Position numbers and translations under genes: made by a program | In this document: positions 5,447 to 25,721 of the stretch, in pieces | Layout: each line of letters starts with the position of its first letter | Numbering within the stretch: the stretch's first letter is position 1 | Notes under the pieces: generated by a model | What the model was told of the DNA's origin: nothing | Databases searched by the model: none | Seen by the model: only the letters and a program-made list of their open reading frames with translations | Source: a virus | DNA length: 25,721 nucleotides | Direction: 5' to 3' (one strand) | Virus record (IMG/VR): IMGVR_UViG_3300000101_000139 | Location: 1 to 25,721 of that record

Positions 5447-6097
5447 TTAATGTATTATTCCGTCAATGACACCCAACTTTTGAGCATCTTTAGAAGATAA
5501 ATATAAATCTGTCTTTGTTTGCTCAGACCAGAATTTTTTATCTTTAATAGTTTTTTCTCCTAGAATAGCATTAGCCATATCCTCTAGATGAGCGTTATAT
5601 TTATGAGCTGCTTTAAGATCAGATGATTTACCAGCTTGCATAGATGAGCCTTCATGTATCATAATTGTAGATCTCTTACTCGCTAGACGTTTACCAGTAC
5701 CACAAGCCAATATCATAGCTGCTGCACTCATCGCTTTCCCTCTACATATAGTATTAACTTTAATATCGCTATTTCTTTCTAAACTCTCTATGTAGTCTAT
5801 AATACCAAACATCTCATATACATCACCACCTACTGAATCTATTATAACATTAATGGGTGAAGAATCACCCTCTTCCCTATTCTTAATAATAGCACGACAT
5901 CTAACCATAAAATCGTATAAGCCAAAATCTTCTATTTCACCTACTATATAGACTACACTATCCTCTACATCAACTGCAAATTCAATCTCTTTATATAGAT
6001 GTTTTTTTTCTAAATCATCTTCATAATAAACTTCCTCTTCAGTTGTATTAGTCTTTACTTGCTCTTCATCGTAATTTCCGTATATATCTCGTGCCAT
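5447..6097 (-). CDS. ClpP-like serine protease
   Basis: 216 residues, close to ClpP length. The fold signature is visible: INVIIDSVGGDVYEMFGIIDYI at about 82-103 (oxyanion/substrate strand), the nucleophile Ser124 in GKAMSAAAM, the catalytic His148 in TIMIHEG, and Asp160 in GKSSDLKAA in the place of the ClpP Asp. The C-terminus has the DLYLSSKDAQKLGVID stretch typical of ClpP. ClpP degrades proteins presented by ClpX/ClpA unfoldases, or acts as a phage prohead protease in some families. No partner ATPase is in this window. Its presence with a phage tmRNA is notable. Confidence 0.9.
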   Translation of the reverse strand: MARDIYGNYDEEQVKTNTTEEEVYYEDDLEKKHLYKEIEFAVDVEDSVVYIVGEIEDFGLYDFMVRCRAIIKNREEGDSSPINVIIDSVGGDVYEMFGIIDYIESLERNSDIKVNTICRGKAMSAAAMILACGTGKRLASKRSTIMIHEGSSMQAGKSSDLKAAHKYNAHLEDMANAILGEKTIKDKKFWSEQTKTDLYLSSKDAQKLGVIDGIIH

Positions 6098-9008: not shown

Positions 9009-9422
9009 CTATGTAATAGCTATAGTTTTAGGTTTAGCTTCTTCTGCAAGTGGTGCAGATAAATGAAGTAAACCATTTTCTAGTTTCGCTTCCAACTGAC
9101 CTAAGTCAAACCTTCTGCTTATTCTCCATCCAAAGTTAAATGCTCGTTTAGCAATATTCCTTTGAATGTATTCATTCTCGTTAGAGCTTGAATCCTTCTT
9201 GTATTCTACTCGAAGTACATCTCCTTCAATAGTGAGCTCAATGTCTTTGTTTGTTAAACCTACGCACGCAATATCAATATTGAGCCCTTCTTCGGCCTCA
9301 TATATGTCTACTGGATGGTTTAGTTTGGATGCATCTGCAAATTGATAATCTACATCTGTCTTGAAATAGTCCTTAAATAGGACGTCGAATGGCGATGTGC
9401 CGAATGGTGTTAAATTTCCCAT
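9009..9422 (-). CDS. hsp20: Small heat-shock protein (Hsp20 / alpha-crystallin)
   Basis: 137 residues. The alpha-crystallin domain is visible: PVDIYEAEEGLNIDIACVGL (about 37-56), TNKDIELTIEGDVLRVEYKK (57-76), ISRRFDLG, LEAKLENGLLHLSAPL near the end. Small heat-shock proteins hold unfolded proteins without ATP and are frequent in T4-like marine phages. A good ribosome site (AAGGAGA) precedes ATG, and a promoter with an about 85-base leader lies at 9510-9540. The leader can fold (see 9471-9503). Its place with tmRNA and ClpP suggests a protein-quality theme. Confidence 0.92.
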   Translation of the reverse strand: MGNLTPFGTSPFDVLFKDYFKTDVDYQFADASKLNHPVDIYEAEEGLNIDIACVGLTNKDIELTIEGDVLRVEYKKDSSSNENEYIQRNIAKRAFNFGWRISRRFDLGQLEAKLENGLLHLSAPLAEEAKPKTIAIT

Positions 9423-9541: not shown

Positions 9542-10108
9542 TTAATAATGAATTATAGGTGTTGTTAGTACACTAGGAACTAATACAATTCCGTTATATA
9601 TTTGAAATGCTGGATCTGTACAACAGGCTCCTCCTCCTCCAGTCCACCCACCAGTCGTACAATCATCAATTACTAACATGCTAATAGTTAGATTATCAGC
9701 AGTACATGTAGGTCCTACTGTTACTTGAAAGCTCATTGTAAATGGTCCTTGGGATGCAGTACCCCAATCAGGGTTAGAAGTATTAACAAATCTCCATCCT
9801 GGTCCAAAGTTTAGGCCACCAATAAATGTATGCTGCAAGTCCCATAACCAATTACCAGCTGAACCAGCTGGATTACCTGGTGCAGTTATTGGAGTAAGAT
9901 TGATCCAACTTGGTGATAAATTAATTTGAAATGCATGAATCCAGTTTATATTAATTCCTGTAAAGTTTCCTAATGTGTATGTAACCGTTACAACATCTCC
10001 TGGAGCATAAGGCCCAGTCGGAGTCATGCTACCAATCTGAGTATTAATGCACTGTGAGCTAGCATTTATGTTTAATAATAAACTTAATATGATTAATAAT
10101 TTTTTCAT
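9542..10108 (-). CDS. Secreted protein, likely host-surface or virion-linked
   Basis: 188 residues. Signal peptide at 1-19 (MKKLLIILSLLLNINASSQ, cleavage near SSQ-C). The mature part is beta-rich, with several Trp and Cys residues and a GGWTGGGGACC glycine-cysteine run near residue 155-166. The C-terminus ends TTPIIHY, very like TGPIQHF at the end of the 10637-11176 protein. No T9SS domain is present. Last gene of the operon, overlapping the previous one by 4 bases (ATGA). Probably exported; function unknown. Confidence 0.75.
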   Translation of the reverse strand: MKKLLIILSLLLNINASSQCINTQIGSMTPTGPYAPGDVVTVTYTLGNFTGININWIHAFQINLSPSWINLTPITAPGNPAGSAGNWLWDLQHTFIGGLNFGPGWRFVNTSNPDWGTASQGPFTMSFQVTVGPTCTADNLTISMLVIDDCTTGGWTGGGGACCTDPAFQIYNGIVLVPSVLTTPIIHY

Positions 10109-10635
10109 CTTACCAAAGTTATAGGTCTAATAAACCTATTATTTTTTATAAAAACATTTATAGTATAAACTCCAATAGGGGAGCTTTCAGCTTTCCACGG
10201 CTCATTGCTCAGCGACTCAAATATTCTTTGACCCCACCTATTGTATATTGCAATATATTCGATCTCATCAGCTGATTTACCCCTTACTGTGTATTGATCA
10301 TTTATACCATCCCCGTTAGGAGTAAATGAATTTGGAAAAAATAGAGTAGCGTAAGGGCAAGGATCTATAACGACTTGATATCGAGAAGTATCTCCTTCAC
10401 ATCCAAATCTCATTGTATAAACTGAAATGAAGTACTCTCCTGCAGAGTCAGGCCATTGTATAGTAATAGTATTATCGAACGCAGAAACCACCTGTCCGTT
10501 AGAGATCGACCAAAAGTACTCCTTATCAGCATCATACTCTACTTGATAGGATTGCGGTTGTATAACCTCACAATCATTATAGATTTCTTGAGCTAACAGA
10601 TGAAAGGGTAATAATATCAATACCCACCACCTCAT
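10105..10635 (-). CDS. Surface protein with Ig-like domain and T9SS type B sorting domain
   Basis: 176 residues from the ATG at 10635; a longer reading from 10671 is possible but puts the signal peptide inside. The start lies 1 base after the upstream stop (TAATATG). Signal peptide at 1-16 (ending FHLLAQ). Residues about 25-92 look like an Ig/PKD-like beta-sandwich. Residues about 98-176 match the gliding-motility-associated C-terminal domain (CHU_C, TIGR04131): PNSFTPNGDGIND (101-113), IYNRWGQRIFE (130-140), PIGVY (153-157). In Bacteroidota this domain directs export by the type IX secretion system and surface anchoring. The phage thus uses the host's export route. Confidence 0.85.
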   Translation of the reverse strand: MRWWVLILLPFHLLAQEIYNDCEVIQPQSYQVEYDADKEYFWSISNGQVVSAFDNTITIQWPDSAGEYFISVYTMRFGCEGDTSRYQVVIDPCPYATLFFPNSFTPNGDGINDQYTVRGKSADEIEYIAIYNRWGQRIFESLSNEPWKAESSPIGVYTINVFIKNNRFIRPITLVR

Positions 10636-10636
10636 A

Positions 10637-11176
10637 TTAAAAGTGTTGAATCGGACCAGTGATTGGTCCATTGTTTACAGTTACATTTATTGTGGTATTA
10701 CATCCAGCCATAGAATAGGTTAATACATAATTACCAACACCAGTTGATGGCTGAAAATTACTACCTACTACACCTGTACCTGACCATGTACCTCCTGCAG
10801 GACTTCCTACTAATGGTGTAGTTGGATCACCAGGACAAAATGGGCCTATAGTATTACCAGATAGATCTAAAATAAATACATCTAGGAGTTGTGGCGTACC
10901 GGGACAACCTGCTGCATTAGATTCTATTACTTCTACCGCATTAGGATAAAGACCAGATACACCTCCCCAGTCTACTGTAATAGAGCTTGTAGTTTGACCT
11001 GTTTGTAAGATACCTCCTCCACCTGTTACCGTCCATTGATATGTTGATGTAGGTGTAACTGCAACTAAATACTGTTCACCTGTTGCATTAGCGCATACTG
11101 TGTCTGGATTAATTGTTGTTTGTGATATTGCAGATATCGATAATGATACCAACAAGATTGTTAGAAATTTCTTCAT
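10637..11176 (-). CDS. Secreted Ig/PKD-like repeat protein
   Basis: 179 residues. Signal peptide at 1-18 (MKKFLTILLVSLSISAIS). Two beta-sandwich-like repeats: about 19-105 (YQWTVTGGGGILQTGQTTSSI...VDWG, as in Bacteroidota PKD-like domains) and about 108-170 (FCPGDPTTPLVGSPAGGTWSGTGVVG...GVGNYVLTYSMAGC). Such repeats are typical of large adhesins in flavobacteria. The protein ends in TGPIQHF, similar to TTPIIHY two genes downstream. A strong ribosome site (AAGGAGAAG) precedes ATG. First gene of the three-gene operon. Confidence 0.8.
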   Translation of the reverse strand: MKKFLTILLVSLSISAISQTTINPDTVCANATGEQYLVAVTPTSTYQWTVTGGGGILQTGQTTSSITVDWGGVSGLYPNAVEVIESNAAGCPGTPQLLDVFILDLSGNTIGPFCPGDPTTPLVGSPAGGTWSGTGVVGSNFQPSTGVGNYVLTYSMAGCNTTINVTVNNGPITGPIQHF

Positions 11177-11192: not shown

Positions 11193-11921
11193 TTATGGTT
11201 TTGAAAATATATATGTATATATTAATCTACCGTTAGCATTTTCTTTTTTTCGATAATCACGCAGTATACTACCATGCCGTACCATATGTGTTTTAGCTTT
11301 TTTTAATCTAGTCTCATCAGTACAGCTAATACATAATAACCCATTAATGGATGTAGCGCGAACAAGATCATCATCTATACTATCATACACCTCTTGTAAT
11401 AGAGCAGTTACCTGATCTTCTGACATCATACTCGGTTCAGAGCGAAACTCTTTAGGCATTAACCTGCGCTTACTCATTATACGTGTCATATAGAAATCAA
11501 CATCTTCTACATCGAGTGATGTAAACCAATTACTAAATTGACGAAGATTATTATTAAAGAGTTCATCTCTATCTTCTTTATGAATTACATCCCATACCAT
11601 TGATATAATGATACGATTAGATTCATCGAGAGCTTTAACATATGCTCGTTGTTTATCAACCGGTAACTTATCAAACCACTGCTGAAAGCCTTCTTGATAT
11701 TTAGCTACCGATGATGAGGTCCAAGATCCGCTCATATCAACTTCATTAAAAAATTCTTTACGAACATCGGGACTTCGAGAGTAAGACGAATGGGTAGACA
11801 TATCATCATTTATTGAGTAATTGTCCATTGATGTATCCTCGTGAGGAGCTCCCCACAGTTCAAGTTTATATAACTTACCGTTACACTTTAACTCTTTAGA
11901 TACAATTGGTCTACTAATCAT
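11193..11921 (-). CDS. Hypothetical protein
   Basis: 242 residues from ATG at 11921 (start MISRPIVSKEL). A longer reading from 11951 would extend into the tmRNA gene and is not used. AAGG lies 9 bases before ATG. No signal peptide or membrane helix; composition is mixed, with charged helices in the middle and a basic C-terminus (KENANGRLIYTYIF). Not recognised. Positioned between the tmRNA and the secreted operon. Confidence 0.7.
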   Translation of the reverse strand: MISRPIVSKELKCNGKLYKLELWGAPHEDTSMDNYSINDDMSTHSSYSRSPDVRKEFFNEVDMSGSWTSSSVAKYQEGFQQWFDKLPVDKQRAYVKALDESNRIIISMVWDVIHKEDRDELFNNNLRQFSNWFTSLDVEDVDFYMTRIMSKRRLMPKEFRSEPSMMSEDQVTALLQEVYDSIDDDLVRATSINGLLCISCTDETRLKKAKTHMVRHGSILRDYRKKENANGRLIYTYIFSKP

Positions 11922-11940: not shown

Positions 11941-12217
11941 TCCACCTCCACCGGGCTTATACGACTTGCCCTGTTAATGCCGTTCGGTTCTGGGGACTTT
12001 ATTAAGCCGCCATTGCCATTTCAACATGTTCGCCTGTTATGCGTGACCTTCCTTAAATCCTTATCTCAATGTCAAATCCAGTGCACCCCCATATTATATT
12101 TAACTACATATAAGTAATATGTAATCTATTGTATCATATGTTTTCACATATAATCGTTGTGGAGGTGGCGGGATTCGAACCCGCGTCCATTTGAGCAGCT
12201 AATAAAAGTACTAGCGG
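11941..12217 (-). ncRNA. ssrA: Circularly permuted (two-piece) tmRNA gene
   Basis: Minus strand order is acceptor piece first, coding piece second. Acceptor piece (about 12217-12160): T-arm GCGGG/TTCGAAT/CCCGC (12168-12184), then CACCTCC (12161-12167) and discriminator A; CCA is not encoded. A 68-base intervening segment (12092-12159) follows, with an ATATGT-GAAA-ACATAT hairpin. Coding piece (12090 down to about 11941) starts GGGGGTG (12084-12090), pairing fully with CACCTCC (one G-U pair), then CACTGGATTTGAC, matching the conserved tmRNA D-arm region (CTGGATTCGAC). TTGAG (coding) can pair with CTCAA (acceptor) as helix P2. A tag ORF ending AMAA-TAA-TAA follows, then a GGGC/GCCC hairpin. tmRNA rescues stalled ribosomes and tags proteins for degradation. 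Ends of the pieces are estimates. Confidence 0.9.
12002..12034 (-). other. tmRNA tag-peptide reading frame
   Basis: Codons GGC GAA CAT GTT GAA ATG GCA ATG GCG GCT then TAA (a second TAA follows), giving GEHVEMAMAA. The resume codon GGC is inferred by comparison with Bacteroidota tags, which often begin GE and end ALAA. The AMAA end still gives a hydrophobic, Ala-Ala terminus as required by tail-specific degradation. Confidence 0.7.
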
Positions 12218-12478
12218 TCAGTTTATTGTTTGTTTTACCTTAATTAACTCTGCACACTTCTCGTACTCTTCACGATCTGCATGCTGAAAATACTCTATTA
12301 CTTCGTTAATAGTGGAAACCCTTCTTGGTTGTTTAAGCATCCAAGTACCTGATGGTAGATCTTGTATATCTACTTCACTAATTAAATACTCGTAAGTATT
12401 GTTCATAGCAGCTTCAAGCAGCTCTAGATCTTCAGCTGAATCACCAAATGTTTCTATTGGTTCACTAAATCCTTCCAT
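12218..12478 (-). CDS. Small protein of a three-member YEKCAE family
   Basis: 86 residues. The C-terminus, EEYEKCAELIKVKQ (about 70-83), is shared with the proteins at 15797-16033 and 22186-22518. An upstream motif, AAMNNTYEYL (about 24-33), matches SAMENTYMIL in the 22186 protein, so the two are full-length paralogues. YEKCAEL-helix motifs resemble a UVR-type helical pair, but this is only similarity. The stop codon is immediately followed by the tmRNA acceptor piece. Function unknown. Confidence 0.75.
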   Translation of the reverse strand: MEGFSEPIETFGDSAEDLELLEAAMNNTYEYLISEVDIQDLPSGTWMLKQPRRVSTINEVIEYFQHADREEYEKCAELIKVKQTIN

Positions 12479-15796: not shown

Positions 15797-16033
15797 TTAC
15801 CACTGTTTTAACTTTACAAGTTCTGCGCATTTCTCATACTCTTCAGTACTAACAAAATGCTCTACTAACTCATCGATTAACTTTCGCTTTTTATAATTAG
15901 TACCTTGCATATCTTTTAAGAACGTTTCATCAGTAGACATATATTTATACATGAGATTGCACCACCCTGAGTGTAGCATATCTATCTGATCGATTAAGTC
16001 TGCAGCTGTAATATCTTTACCGTTTATATTCAT
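15797..16033 (-). CDS. Small protein with YEKCAE C-terminus
   Basis: 78 residues. C-terminal ELVEHFVSTEEYEKCAELVKLKQ repeats the motif of the 12218 and 22186 proteins (EEYEKCAEL/IxKxK). The N-terminal part differs, with a helix and Met-rich segment. It starts 1 base after the stop of a 17-residue ORF, with TAATATG junctions on both sides. Role unknown. Confidence 0.65.
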   Translation of the reverse strand: MNINGKDITAADLIDQIDMLHSGWCNLMYKYMSTDETFLKDMQGTNYKKRKLIDELVEHFVSTEEYEKCAELVKLKQW

Positions 16034-16089: not shown

Positions 16090-18144
16090 TTACTTAGTTA
16101 AAAACATCTTATTTAACGTCTTAGCTAACGGGATAAGGCTAGTTACATCTATTGTCTGTGCAGCTTTTCCATACATTCTAGTAAATTCATCTTGAGAACC
16201 GTATTGGTTATTACCAATAAAGTAACTTAAAACCTGTATACCTCTCTTTTTCATATTATCAATCTGCTTTCTAGTATGCAGTATAGCAGATTCTCCATAG
16301 TATTGGTAACCTTTAGGTTCACAGTATGGCATCCCATCACTAAAATTAATAAAATAACTCTCTTTATCACCTGATGCAGCAACTAGTTCATTTTTTATAG
16401 CTTCAAACGTTAGCCCTTCCGGGGTTAAATTAGAAGCACATATATGCTTGAATAAGCTAGTAATTTTTTTAAAGCTATCAACTCTTGAATCGTAAGCAAT
16501 TAAGATAATCGGCTTATCTCCTGTAGTAGTTCTATAAGATACTTGAATATCTAAGTTATCAATCATAGAAGCTGCTTTTGCAATAGCTACTACAGCTGTT
16601 TGACAGTTTTCAAATCTCGATCCAGCCATTGACCCTGAAGCATCTATAGTAATATGCACGTTAGCAGGAGTATATTTATCGTTCATAACCTGCTGGAATA
16701 TTCTCTCTGCACCAAAACCTAGAGTACTAATTAATCTCTTATCTATCTTGCCAGAATCTAATCTAGAAAATTTAGTATTTCGCTCTTCGCTTCTTAATTT
16801 AAGTTTTTTACCTAGCTGTCTACCGAGAGTAATACCTTTACTAACTGCATTACTTAATGTTTCTCCTTTAGATCTCCATACTTGACCATTTAAGAAATTA
16901 TAACCTGCATTATCAATAACGTTCTGAGTAAGTTTCTTTACAACGATACACTCAGTTTCGTAAACCTTTCCATTATATCTATTAGTAGTCTTACCAACCT
17001 TCTTAATCTCTGAACCAGACTCTTCTAAAGCCTTCATTTTCTTCTGCTCAGTCTTATTAAGTTTAGTCTTTTTAATATTATTATTGATAAAATCTTTCTG
17101 CTTTTGAATAGCTTTAGCTAACTGCTTCTCTTGACGAGGAGATAACTCAGGTAAGTCTGATCCTCCTGCTCCTCCAGCACCATTGCCTTGAGCGGTACCT
17201 GTAATAGCTTCCTCTCCTTCAGCTTTAGAACCATCATCTTTTGAATCACCTTCTGGAGTAGTAGCTTCGTCACCGCTAGTAGTATTATTACCCTCATCAC
17301 CATCTTTTTGACTATCACCATCCTGACCTGAAGTAGTTTCTTGCTCAGTAACAGCAGGAATATTTGCTTCTACTAGTTGAAATATCTTTAGAGCGATAGT
17401 AAGTGACTGCTTAGTAGACTTTAATCTATCGATGTTAGCTAGATCAATTACTTTATAAACATCTAATAATCCAGGTAAAGCGTTAAGATCACGGTTAGCA
17501 TTAGTAATATTAATAATATGAAACATATAAGAGTCCCAATCTAATTCTCTATGACTTGACGAAGCTAAAGCTTTATCAATAATAGGTGAGCTAAAGTAAC
17601 GATTATATAGAGCATGATAATAGCCTTTATAACCAGGAGCTGATTTGAATACGAAATTATCTATTCGTCTGTCCTCAACTATATTTAATAAATTTCTAAC
17701 CTTATCTTTAACATAACTTTTAGCTGACATATGACTCTTCATATCATACTTCTCATTCACTGTAGAGTATATATCACAAGCATCTGCCCAGCTAGCTATC
17801 TCTAGCTCTAAATGAGGTAAAATATTAAAATCAGTTAATAGAACGTGAGAACCTTCATGTAGAGCTAATCCAACAGTACTATCGAAATCTTTATCCTTAA
17901 TACTAGCTGAAATAGTTACTGACTTACCATCAGTATAACTATCTTTACCTTCAAATCGAACAGGTATATCTGACTTACCAGTCACAATATTAACGAAGTT
18001 AGAAATCGCTCTACGATATCCAGATAACTTAATCAGCTCAGAAGTTCTATCTGAAACTATATCTCCTGTCAGGATATCTCTATCCTCAGAAAAGAAGTCG
18101 TTTCCTAACCACCAGCTTGAATTTGTTCTATTTTTTATAATCAT
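16090..18144 (-). CDS. VWA-domain protein with HExxH metallopeptidase-like region
   Basis: 684 residues. A HExxH zinc motif is seen at 96-100 (LALHEGSHVLL), followed by NIVEDRRIDNF near 154-164, the layout of VWA-linked metallopeptidase-like proteins. Residues about 265-330 are a low-complexity acidic linker. The VWA domain starts near 495 with the MIDAS motif DASGSM (501-506). Related proteins often work with an AAA+ MoxR/CobS-type ATPase, not present here. Two strong promoters lie just upstream. A role in protein remodelling or metal insertion is possible. The low-complexity linker makes the 17118-17321 ORF a shadow. Confidence 0.8.
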   Translation of the reverse strand: MIIKNRTNSSWWLGNDFFSEDRDILTGDIVSDRTSELIKLSGYRRAISNFVNIVTGKSDIPVRFEGKDSYTDGKSVTISASIKDKDFDSTVGLALHEGSHVLLTDFNILPHLELEIASWADACDIYSTVNEKYDMKSHMSAKSYVKDKVRNLLNIVEDRRIDNFVFKSAPGYKGYYHALYNRYFSSPIIDKALASSSHRELDWDSYMFHIINITNANRDLNALPGLLDVYKVIDLANIDRLKSTKQSLTIALKIFQLVEANIPAVTEQETTSGQDGDSQKDGDEGNNTTSGDEATTPEGDSKDDGSKAEGEEAITGTAQGNGAGGAGGSDLPELSPRQEKQLAKAIQKQKDFINNNIKKTKLNKTEQKKMKALEESGSEIKKVGKTTNRYNGKVYETECIVVKKLTQNVIDNAGYNFLNGQVWRSKGETLSNAVSKGITLGRQLGKKLKLRSEERNTKFSRLDSGKIDKRLISTLGFGAERIFQQVMNDKYTPANVHITIDASGSMAGSRFENCQTAVVAIAKAASMIDNLDIQVSYRTTTGDKPIILIAYDSRVDSFKKITSLFKHICASNLTPEGLTFEAIKNELVAASGDKESYFINFSDGMPYCEPKGYQYYGESAILHTRKQIDNMKKRGIQVLSYFIGNNQYGSQDEFTRMYGKAAQTIDVTSLIPLAKTLNKMFLTK

Positions 18145-21995: not shown

Positions 21996-22202
21996 TTACT
22001 CCGGTGGTGATTGTCCATCTTCTAATGCCCACTCATCACATTGCTGTAATATAGACTTAATAAACTTATCTGTATTTAATATCATTGATAAATCTGGATT
22101 ATCCATTAACGTATTTTGTATTGCTACTCTAACTGAAGTTTTAGAATATCTAGGATTCCACTTCTTCATTGGTTTACTTCTTGGTCTACCTCTTTGTGCC
22201 AT
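21996..22202 (-). CDS. Small hypothetical protein
   Basis: 68 residues. Basic N-terminus (MAQRGRPRSKPMKKWNPRYSK, with an AT-hook-like RGRPR) and a helical C-terminal half with Trp and several acidic residues. The RGRP motif could bind the minor groove of AT-rich DNA, but a single copy is weak evidence. Overlaps the 22186 gene by 17 bases. Confidence 0.6.
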   Translation of the reverse strand: MAQRGRPRSKPMKKWNPRYSKTSVRVAIQNTLMDNPDLSMILNTDKFIKSILQQCDEWALEDGQSPPE

Positions 22203-22518
22203 ATCTTTTCTCTTTAATTTTTACTATTTCTGCGCATTTCTCGTACTCTTCACTCTCTACATAATAATCTATCATCGATTCAAACAACTCATTACTATTG
22301 ATATCATTATGTAGGTGCGGAAATTCTGGATTATAATCATCTGACATAGGGTTAAATAATAACGCTACATCATTATGTTGATCAATACTACCTGGTTGCA
22401 TAGATACTTTATCCATTAAACTATCCCAAGTAGCTTTACCTGTTAATATCATGTAAGTATTCTCCATTGCTGATCGAAGTATACGTTGATCGAATTCCAT
22501 TTCTTCTATTTCATTCAT
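22186..22518 (-). CDS. Protein of the YEKCAE family
   Basis: 110 residues. Shares AMENTYMIL (about 16-24) with AMNNTYEYL in the 12218 protein and YVESEEYEKCAEIVKIKEK near the C-terminus with the 12218 and 15797 proteins. A long polar linker separates the two motifs. The ATG overlaps the carbamoyltransferase stop by 4 bases (ATGA), so translation is coupled. Confidence 0.7.
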   Translation of the reverse strand: MNEIEEMEFDQRILRSAMENTYMILTGKATWDSLMDKVSMQPGSIDQHNDVALLFNPMSDDYNPEFPHLHNDINSNELFESMIDYYVESEEYEKCAEIVKIKEKRYGTKR

Positions 22519-24287
22519 ATTTTTTTATTTAATTTATTAGTATTTTCTTCAGGCATTGTTAAACCTCCTATAAGATTTTTATGCATGTCACCCATTTCAT
22601 GTGGCTCTTTATTATTAGCTGGATCATTTAAAAAATCCAACATATCAGTATCCTTATTTACTAACATTTTATAATCACTAAAGTATAAGTAATCTATATT
22701 AGTTCCCATGAAGCAATTAATAGCATGCTCAGGAGTCTCAACTATAGGTTCTCTATCATTAAAGCTAGTATTAAGTATTATAGGTACACCTGTACGTTCT
22801 TTCCACTTCTTTATAAAATTATAATACCACTTGTTTGTACCTTCAGTAACTGTCTGCAATCTACCTGTACCGTCTAAGTGAACAACTGCTGGAACTTTAT
22901 CTTTAACTTCATCTTTAAATTGTAAGACGAAACTCATATAAGGACTGTTAATATCTCTAACGAACCAATCACTCACATCTTCTCGAAGTATTGAAGGTGC
23001 AAATGGTCGATACCATTGCCTGTGCTTAACCTTGTCGTTAATTAGGTCTTTCATCTTAGGGCTCCTAGGGTCAGCTATAATACTTCTGTTACCTAGCGCT
23101 CGACGCCCACTCTCTGCTCCCCCATTAAATATAGATATTATATTCTGTTCGTCTAATAAATCTAATACCTTATCATCATCCACTTCTTGTACGTTAATAT
23201 CAAATCTATCTAATGCAGACATAACCTCATCTTTAGTATATGTTACTCCTAGATAAGGAGTAGGATTAGGGTTCCATTCTATTCTAGGATTATCTAAAAT
23301 TTGATGCCATACATATTGAGCGCAACCTATAGCTAATCCACCATCATAAGGTACTGGACATACATACATATTTTCTACTCCAAACCAATCATACATTTTA
23401 CCCATCATTACCGAGTTTAATATAACTCCACCAGCAAAACATATATTAGTAGGCTTATGTTCATCTATATATGGTTTAATAATATTATAAGCTACTTCTT
23501 CTGTAGCTCGTTGAAGAGAAGCAGCTACATCAAATCTATCTTGCTCACTCTTATCCGCTATAGGTTTTAATTTATCTACTACTGCGTATGTATGTTTACT
23601 TGGACCACCTTCACCTGCTATAAATGCATTATAAAAGTCTTTCCAATACTTAGGTTCACCTACAGATGCCATAGCCATTATAGTACCTCCTGCAAATCCA
23701 TGTGGATGTCCAGCTGATAATCCGAATATATCTCTGGTATATATTCTCCATGGCGATCCTATAGTAATTGCTTCCATAGGTATTCTAGCTATAGGTTCAA
23801 TTTTATTACCTTTACCTTTCCAAAAAGTAAATGCTGAAGAAAAGAAGTCGTTAGGAGTATTAGGGTCATACTCTCTATGATAGTCATAATGATCTGTTTT
23901 CTCTGTACCACTACCATCAATAGTTATTATTAATGCTTCATCATAATTACTAGAAAAGAAAGCATTAGCTGCATGAGATTGATGATGACTAATAACATAA
24001 TATTTACCATTAGACTTATCTAATAATTCCATCATACTATCAGTCGCATGATCCTTAGCGCATGTCGCTTTATGGTCACCTGTACGTTTCCTCGGATTAC
24101 CAAAAGCGAAATGAGTTACCTCACTTAATACATCTTCAGGTAAGCGTTCAAGAGCCATCTCTAGACCATCACCCATAGGTTCTTTTTCTCGTATAAACCT
24201 TTCTAGCTCTTCATGCACCTTAGGCACACCATTATCTAGTAAGCAGTAAGCTACATCATGCCCACTATTAAATCCTAATATTTTCAT
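22515..24287 (-). CDS. Carbamoyltransferase (NodU/TobZ family)
   Basis: 590 residues, full family length. N-terminal ASKHA-type domain starts ILGFNSGHDVAYCLLDNG; HHQSHAANAFFSS (about 101-113) is the conserved His motif that helps make carbamoyl-adenylate; ITIDGSGTEK follows. A conserved ICFAGGVILNS core lies near 281-291. The C-terminal domain has ESGRRALGNRSIIADPR (about 390-406) and RPFAPSILRE. The enzyme attaches a carbamoyl group to sugar or other hydroxyls; phage target unknown. It sits near the glycosyltransferase. Well supported as a family. Confidence 0.92.
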   Translation of the reverse strand: MKILGFNSGHDVAYCLLDNGVPKVHEELERFIREKEPMGDGLEMALERLPEDVLSEVTHFAFGNPRKRTGDHKATCAKDHATDSMMELLDKSNGKYYVISHHQSHAANAFFSSNYDEALIITIDGSGTEKTDHYDYHREYDPNTPNDFFSSAFTFWKGKGNKIEPIARIPMEAITIGSPWRIYTRDIFGLSAGHPHGFAGGTIMAMASVGEPKYWKDFYNAFIAGEGGPSKHTYAVVDKLKPIADKSEQDRFDVAASLQRATEEVAYNIIKPYIDEHKPTNICFAGGVILNSVMMGKMYDWFGVENMYVCPVPYDGGLAIGCAQYVWHQILDNPRIEWNPNPTPYLGVTYTKDEVMSALDRFDINVQEVDDDKVLDLLDEQNIISIFNGGAESGRRALGNRSIIADPRSPKMKDLINDKVKHRQWYRPFAPSILREDVSDWFVRDINSPYMSFVLQFKDEVKDKVPAVVHLDGTGRLQTVTEGTNKWYYNFIKKWKERTGVPIILNTSFNDREPIVETPEHAINCFMGTNIDYLYFSDYKMLVNKDTDMLDFLNDPANNKEPHEMGDMHKNLIGGLTMPEENTNKLNKKI

Positions 24288-24801: not shown

Positions 24802-25721
24802 TTAAATTAATTGTTTGTTTACTTGTCTACAGCCAAAGAGACCTAACTCTTTAGCTTTTACTTCTAATACTATATCGATATCTAAACCGTAAGTATTTAT
24901 TTCTTCTATAACATAATCTGCGTGAGCGGTAGCTCTAATTTTATCTACCTTTTTCTTCATCTCAAGCAAAGTAGGCCAGTCTTCTATATTTTTTGGATCT
25001 ATAGAGTTAGCTTTACACATACGGTTAAACGCTCTTAACTCTTCTTCTCGTTTAGATTCAGAATAGTGGGTGCATTGACGAACATCATCTGGCCAAGTAG
25101 TAGCTGCTAACTTAAGAGCTTCTTCTTCAGTTAAACCACTAGTGTGAAACTTATGATGAAAGTAATCGAATGTAATTGGTATACCTATCTCTTTATGAAA
25201 ATAATCATATAACATTTGTACTGACCACATATTAGCTTTATCATCGTTCTCAACTACCAATCGCTTCTTACAGCTATCTGATAGTCTATGCCAAGCTGCT
25301 ATCCATCGTACTGCAGTAGCAGCATGATCTCCATAAGCGCCTCCTATATGTATATTTATCTTATTATCAAACGAAGGTTCAAATCCCATCATATCAAACA
25401 TCTCTGAATGACGCTCAAGTCCTATAATAGATTTATCAACTACTGCAGGAGTAGGAGAACCTAATACTGTAAACGGGCCTGGATGGGTAGTTACTCTCAT
25501 ATTATGTTTACGAGCATACTCACCTGCTTCAAATAAAGCAGCTTTAATCTCGTCTAGTTGAGGTAACATTTTTAGCTCGTAATGGTCATGCCAAGGTATA
25601 AGTTCACTACCGATACGAAATAGAGTAATATTATGCTCTTTGTTCCATTTAAGGTAGTGTAATAAGTCTTTAGCATTATCTAATGCTTTAACACCTACTG
25701 CTTCGTAATCCCAACCTTCAT
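24802..25721 (-). CDS. uvsE: UV damage endonuclease UvsE/UVDE, N-terminus beyond the window
   Basis: Reading frame remains open to the window edge (306 codons visible; no stop), so the start is outside; an internal Met at 25569 is not the start. Visible signature: LFRIGSELIPWHDH, then RVTTHPGPFTVLGSP, HIGGAYGDHAATAVRWIAAWHRL, VVENDD, GIPITFDYFHHKFH and a THYSE motif. These His, Glu and Asp residues match the UVDE TIM-barrel metal site. It nicks DNA 5' to UV photoproducts. The last codons end 12 bases before the ATG of the DUF4494-like gene. Confidence 0.9.
   Translation of the reverse strand, partial: EGWDYEAVGVKALDNAKDLLHYLKWNKEHNITLFRIGSELIPWHDHYELKMLPQLDEIKAALFEAGEYARKHNMRVTTHPGPFTVLGSPTPAVVDKSIIGLERHSEMFDMMGFEPSFDNKINIHIGGAYGDHAATAVRWIAAWHRLSDSCKKRLVVENDDKANMWSVQMLYDYFHKEIGIPITFDYFHHKFHTSGLTEEEALKLAATTWPDDVRQCTHYSESKREEELRAFNRMCKANSIDPKNIEDWPTLLEMKKKVDKIRATAHADYVIEEINTYGLDIDIVLEVKAKELGLFGCRQVNKQLI

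Follow-up and report, generated by a model that had tools for sequence, protein, structure and literature searches.

A permuted two-piece tmRNA gene in a fragment of a putative T4-like Bacteroidota phage belongs to an apparently undescribed phage clade

The window analysed here is a stretch of 25,721 nucleotides (nt), positions 1 to 25,721 of the IMG/VR virus record IMGVR_UViG_3300000101_000139. It carries a permuted, two-piece transfer-messenger RNA (tmRNA) gene at 12220-11953 on the minus strand, with the acceptor half encoded first. An earlier note, made from the letters alone, had placed such a gene at 11941-12217, with the acceptor part ahead of the 5′ part; all the elements that it listed are present, and its range is nearly right, the gene being about 3 bases longer at the 5′ end, to 12220. 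The 3′ end lies somewhere from 11953 to about 11922, i.e. up to about 30 nt beyond 11953. The Infernal search proposed in the note is significant: with cmscan, RF04321 (tmRNA_permuted) matches 12209-12002 of the minus strand with 66.4 bits (E 5.4e-11; curated cut-off 47 bits). ARAGORN also reports a permuted gene (tmRNA*) and reads the same tag as the note did, GEHVEMAMAA. The acceptor halves GGGGGTG and CACCTCC pair at 7/7 positions, as had been claimed, and the sole wobble is G3:U70. The P2-like pairing TTGAG/CTCAA is also real; it is part of a 7-bp helix, in which CATTGAG (12071-12065) pairs with CTC-A-AATG (12195-12188) around a bulge. The CCA end is not encoded in the window gene. We also weighed whether GTGGAGGTGG, near 11950, could pair with the acceptor strand, and rejected this, as both are altered in the relative L005 without compensation. 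The coordinates are collected in Table 1.

Table 1. Parts of the permuted tmRNA gene and neighbouring genes in the window
Feature	Position	Strand	Remarks
Acceptor piece	12160..12220	-	First in gene; exact 5′ end predicted
5′ strands in acceptor piece	P2c 12220-12216; P2b 12208-12202; P2 12195-12188	-	P2c TGACC
T-arm	12184-12168	-	GCGGG-TTCGAAT-CCCGC, read from sequence
Acceptor 3′ strand	12167-12161	-	CACCTCC; discriminator A at 12160
Intervening sequence	12091..12159	-	69 nt; removal expected; two hairpins, z -4.2
Coding piece	11953..12090	-	Holds 3′ strands of P2, P2b and P2c, tag, pseudoknot
Acceptor 5′ strand	12090-12084	-	GGGGGTG; in coding piece
3′ strands in coding piece	P2 12071-12065; P2b 12058-12052; P2c 12048-12044	-	
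Resume-codon hairpin	12022..12039	-	TAACA 12039-12035 / TGTTG 12026-12022; GGC in loop
Tag reading frame	12005..12034	-	GEHVEMAMAA, then two TAA stops at 12004-11999
H-type pseudoknot	11953..11983	-	3′ of tag; stems S1 and S2
Pseudoknot stem S1	11983-11979 / 11965-11961	-	ACGGC / GTCGT
Pseudoknot stem S2	11971-11968 / 11956-11953	-	GGGC / GCCC
Upstream gene	12218..12478	-	86 aa; stop TGA inside helix P2c
Downstream gene	11193..11921	-	Likely start ATG 11921
CHU_C type IX secretion signal domain protein	10105..10671	-	PF13585 43.9 bits, cut-off 27; Bacteroidota host marker

The permuted reading could in principle be a mistake, made on a tmRNA of the standard one-piece form or on a damaged copy. 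The one-piece model RF00023 does give a partial match of 38.5 bits to the 3′ half of the gene, but the score is below its cut-off (likewise 47 bits) and is driven by the T-arm side. Downstream of the coding piece there is no second T-arm; the window has just one more exact T-loop-like match, at 25376 on the opposite strand, so that no one-piece reading competes. The constant order in all clade members and the covariation of the acceptor halves, described below, also speak against it, and we give this reading next to no chance.

Relatives were sought via the 86-aa gene immediately upstream of the tmRNA gene. A permuted tmRNA is found at the same place, with the same order of its parts, in 7/7 of the best relative loci (58-92% identical), which answers the note's suggestion to look for this order in related phages. 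General permuted-tmRNA patterns in IMG/VR revealed a far larger clade, whose tags follow the pattern G[EA]xVxxAMAA; 104 IMG/VR stretches match a tag-DNA pattern. An initial, too strict DNA pattern (TTTGAC, gap 50-80 nt) had returned zero matches. We parsed 68 clade genes and aligned 47 non-redundant ones. The acceptor-first order is kept in every member, the discriminator is A, and CCA is encoded in 2 of the 68 genes only. Among the relatives the tag occurs in 18 DNA variants, many of them synonymous, with frame and stop kept. The RF04321 scores of the clade members listed are 55.7-71.3 bits. No close isolate at the DNA level was found in INPHARED, and RF04321 has no match in Flavobacterium phage immuto, Microcystis phage Mel-JY01 or LR756508. 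The window tmRNA is part of a coherent, large and apparently undescribed phage branch, in which a distinctive tag and structure are conserved.

The intervening sequence ranges from 16 to 70 nt among the relatives and falls into two size classes, 16-22 and 68-70 nt. Near-identical copies of the long form occur in differing tmRNA backgrounds (window 12091-12159; L244, L270, L293, L295, L319), and L082 and L295 are nearly identical except for this sequence. Together, this suggests insertion or recombination.

Six helices (acceptor, T, P2, P2b, P2c and the resume hairpin) were scored over the 47 sequences. Of all helix cells 97.2% are paired, and double changes occur at 15 of the 34 pairs. The double-change cells number 161, against 45.6 in shuffles, and 0/500 shuffles reach the observed count; such counts are inflated by kinship among the sequences, so the control with slid partners weighs most, and there the covariation score of 0.318 falls to at most 0.087. 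The acceptor stem, P2, P2b and P2c, all of them helices between the two pieces, covary. Since these helices connect both pieces, the halves, though encoded apart, seem to evolve as a single molecule. The alanine identity pair G3:U70 is present in 47/47 sequences. The resume hairpin has five pairs (99.6% of cells paired) and holds the GGC resume codon in its loop; its inner pair switches between U-A and A-U in step with Gln/His at tag residue 3, possibly in few events. The pseudoknot lies at the same position with a covarying S2 in most relatives, and S2 takes several distinct paired forms. The search chose a different fold in about 10 of the 47 sequences, so that the pseudoknot is well supported, not universal as parsed. 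Within the acceptor piece, GCTAGTA/TATTAGC could form a local hairpin, but this was dropped in favour of P2b: the hairpin shows 0 double changes, while P2b has five pairs with them.

A covariance model was built from 29 clade members, the window excluded. It gives 165.5 bits on the left-out window and 137.7-166.3 bits on five further left-out members, whereas all non-clade phage tmRNAs tested stay at or below 76.4 bits, including the beta-like L139 (60.7 bits). The cut-offs of the alpha, beta and cyano subtypes (RF01849, RF01850, RF01851) are reached by no scanned clade member, and RF04321 is the only one of these families reported for the window and the clade loci scanned. The same search returns RF01850 for L139, and a search by E-value returns RF01849 for the Pelagibacter phage Mosig.

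The window fits a T4-like phage of Bacteroidota, as it encodes a T4-type gp25-like baseplate wedge protein alongside the CHU_C protein, and a Gp23-type capsid is found in 6 of the 9 long clade contigs. CHU_C is above its cut-off in 13/82 clade records (10/48 + 3/34), in 0/47 records of non-clade permuted-tmRNA phages (the control set, from which the clade member L270 was excluded) and in 0/14 control genomes. For the two clade capsids tested, the nearest named phages are immuto (46-55% identity) and Mel-JY01 (47-58%), followed by Rhodothermus phage RM378; Mel-JY01 may owe its Microcystis label to a culture that was not axenic. Because CHU_C occurs in clade records but not in the controls, and a Flavobacterium phage is among the nearest by capsid, Bacteroidota is the best host inference, which bears out the Bacteroidota-type phage of the earlier note. 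One clade tmRNA (L321:4250-4420, CALBOT010000027.1) lies on a contig of an archaeal Nitrosopelagicus metagenome-assembled genome. Several genes of this contig match clade phages, chiefly L163 (59-85% identity), so the contig probably comes from a phage and was binned with the archaeon. This agrees with the misbinning suspected for archaeal tmRNAs (PMC11915505).

The anatomy is that of a two-piece tmRNA; its processing, charging and tagging we infer from this anatomy and from the biology of two-piece tmRNAs (PMC3985003). We suggest that a single precursor would be transcribed, with the acceptor half leading, and cut by RNase P and tRNase Z. Host RNase P would act just 5′ of the GGGG that opens the coding piece, while 3′ processing would trim the acceptor piece to the discriminator A, where the CCA-adding enzyme would finish the end, needed because CCA is not encoded. 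The two pieces would stay joined through the acceptor stem, P2, P2b and P2c, with the GGC resume codon displayed in its hairpin loop; the covariation supports both points. The host alanyl-tRNA synthetase would charge the molecule via G3:U70, and host SmpB would bring it to ribosomes that have stalled on a broken mRNA. There, the growing protein would gain (A)GEHVEMAMAA and be degraded, and ribosomes would be freed during infection.

Several points weigh against this mechanism and assignment. The host is deduced from genes rather than from a known isolate of the clade, and the window, at 25.7 kb, is a fragment. No smpB was found in 50 phage records, many of them fragmentary, so the function would rely on host SmpB. 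In the coding piece of a two-piece tmRNA, the tag typically lies between two pseudoknots, PK1 and PK2 (PMC3985003), but the clade has no space for a classical PK1 and a single pseudoknot only, 3′ of the tag; given the wording "typically", the absence marks a variant and does not take the clade out of the class. Finally, the tag ends in MAA and not in the usual LAA, and degradation by ClpXP is thus uncertain. The AMAA terminus in place of ALAA would also fit a decoy RNA, which binds ribosomes and chiefly blocks or competes with host trans-translation, adding no degradable tag. However, the tag frame and stop conserved through synonymous changes, together with the conserved resume hairpin, suggest a translated tag, and we consider a decoy improbable. 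With these points weighed, we are confident that the two-piece tmRNA gene in the window is functional and encoded by a T4-like phage, whose host is very probably a marine member of Bacteroidota.

Since the stop codon of the upstream gene lies inside P2c, the tmRNA is likely co-transcribed with this gene. Downstream, ATG 11921 is preferred as the start, because GTG 11951 would fall in or just past the tmRNA. In most other clade members ATATTTATA or a near variant stands just 5′ of P2c, and this motif often precedes genes in these loci as well. An element of the TATTTATA type precedes P2c in 47/68 clade genes (e.g. L161, L105), and TATTTATA has 51 occurrences in the 80-nt upstream regions of 576 open reading frames of these loci, mostly 10-40 nt before the start. 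The ATATTTATA/TATTTATA element is possibly a promoter of the phage group.

Beside the tmRNA gene, at 9542-11176, are three adjacent secreted-looking genes, one with a PKD-like domain and one being the CHU_C gene; phage use of the host type IX secretion system is possible. Three small proteins (12218-12478, 15797-16033, 22186-22518) have in common the C-terminal motif EEYEKCAE(L/I)xK(V/L/I)K, and their relatives are common in marine phages. At 5447-6097 lies a ClpP-like serine protease (Pfam CLP_protease, 91.5 bits), which resembles head maturation proteases too; it could be a capsid protease or act on tagged proteins. The auxiliary genes in the window encode a carbamoyltransferase (22515-24287), the UV endonuclease UvdE (24802-25719), Hsp20 (9009-9422) and a CobT-like protein (16090-18144).

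The lineage may be of use in several respects. Being widespread, virus-borne, outside the alpha, beta and cyano models and tied to Bacteroidota, it offers a test of how gene permutation originates and spreads. Its tmRNA is small and heavily covarying, and PK1 appears to be replaced by helices between two RNAs. Its presence suggests that T4-like phages of Bacteroidota benefit from the rescue of stalled ribosomes. The phage-like contig in the Nitrosopelagicus bin could explain some, at least, of the 'archaeal' tmRNAs.

Permuted two-piece tmRNAs are a class already known, with descriptions from three main bacterial lineages; RF04321 merges the alpha (RF01849), beta (RF01850) and cyano (RF01851) families (PMC11915505). 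To these lineages, which the earlier note had named as the established ones, phages have to be added: the INPHARED set holds 53 two-piece phage tmRNAs, 50 of them marine or aquatic (PMC9004378), and there are database records of Bacteroidota phages too. The class, also in phages, is therefore known already; what is new here is the clade with its own tag and structure. It shares with RF04321 the order of acceptor piece, intervening sequence and coding piece, G3:U70, the T-arm, the stacked cross-piece helices and a tag ending in AA. It differs in its scores below the subtype cut-offs, the lack of room for PK1, the resume codon in a hairpin loop, the rarity of encoded CCA and the tag G[EA]xVxxAMAA.

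Phage Melnitz and the Pelagibacter phages, e.g. Mosig, are alike in having permuted tmRNAs in marine T4-like phages (PMC9004378). This raises the possibility that the permuted gene was transferred from an alphaproteobacterial or pelagimyophage source, or from another known permuted lineage, by exchange among marine T4-like phages, and then diverged. The RNA would work identically, and the permutation would not have been born in Bacteroidota phages. Mosig has an alpha-type permuted tmRNA (RF01849 67.6 bits, CCA encoded) with a tag likewise starting GE (GEDNFALAA by ARAGORN), so the GE start, which had been taken as a sign of Bacteroidota, is weak evidence. Mosig and the window also share a distant protein homologue, permuted tmRNAs are common among marine phages (PMC9004378), and the stacked cross-piece helices are laid out as in the RF04321 consensus. 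However, the clade model gives Mosig just 53.8 bits, against at least 137.7 for clade members. The subtype cut-offs that all scanned clade members miss are met by Mosig and L139. By eye, the pre-tag hairpin modelled in RF04321 is not seen in the clade, while Mosig appears to have it. Moreover, the crAss-like cr114_1, a Bacteroidota phage, has by eye the same TAACTGGC resume context and pseudoknot as the clade. We thus regard transfer as a real but doubtful possibility. The conserved core is too short for a decisive tree. An independent permutation is a plausible hypothesis: at less than even odds, the permutation may have arisen another, independent time in Bacteroidota phages from a Bacteroidota-type tmRNA, which would give a viral lineage absent from the host phylum, with PK1 replaced by the cross-piece helices and the resume hairpin.

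Other permuted tmRNAs of Bacteroidota phages match RF04321 in Chryseobacterium phage MA9V-3 (PV245944; 64.7 bits), cr114_1 (50.9 bits) and the crAss-like cr53_1 (50.3 bits). In database records the first two are annotated as tmRNA and that of cr53_1 is not; among the papers searched, none discusses the permuted tmRNAs of these three, and a search with four Bacteroidota-like tag strings found no paper either. Unlike the clade, they have other tags (GNVIDINKYVAKLEVAA in MA9V-3, and GNFYVTDYTRIAA) and reach at most 63.0 bits with the clade model, the score of MA9V-3. By eye, cr114_1 is similar to the clade in its pseudoknot and near the resume codon. In cr114_1 (L326:539-981) an intact tRNA-His gene lies within the intervening sequence, and a minihelix of acceptor and T-arm only stands, by eye, directly 3′ of the coding piece. 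Additional permuted tmRNAs (L211, L246, L249, L255, L283, L290, L300, L303) carry unusual tags, among them GKVINMFGQPQLRAVA and GNVIEMFPKLRAVA; they recall MA9V-3 and are perhaps a second Bacteroidota-phage group. At L284:2641-2714 and L303:11518-11587 tRNA genes abut or overlap the ends of the permuted tmRNA genes, where tRNA processing might set the outer tmRNA ends. The tmRNAs of Cellulophaga phages Calle_1 / phi38:1 and phi14:2 and of Flavobacterium phage FpV4 are like those of the clade in being encoded by Bacteroidota phages and in a tag that starts, by eye, with Gly. However, they have the one-piece order and match RF00023, phi14:2 just under the cut-off.
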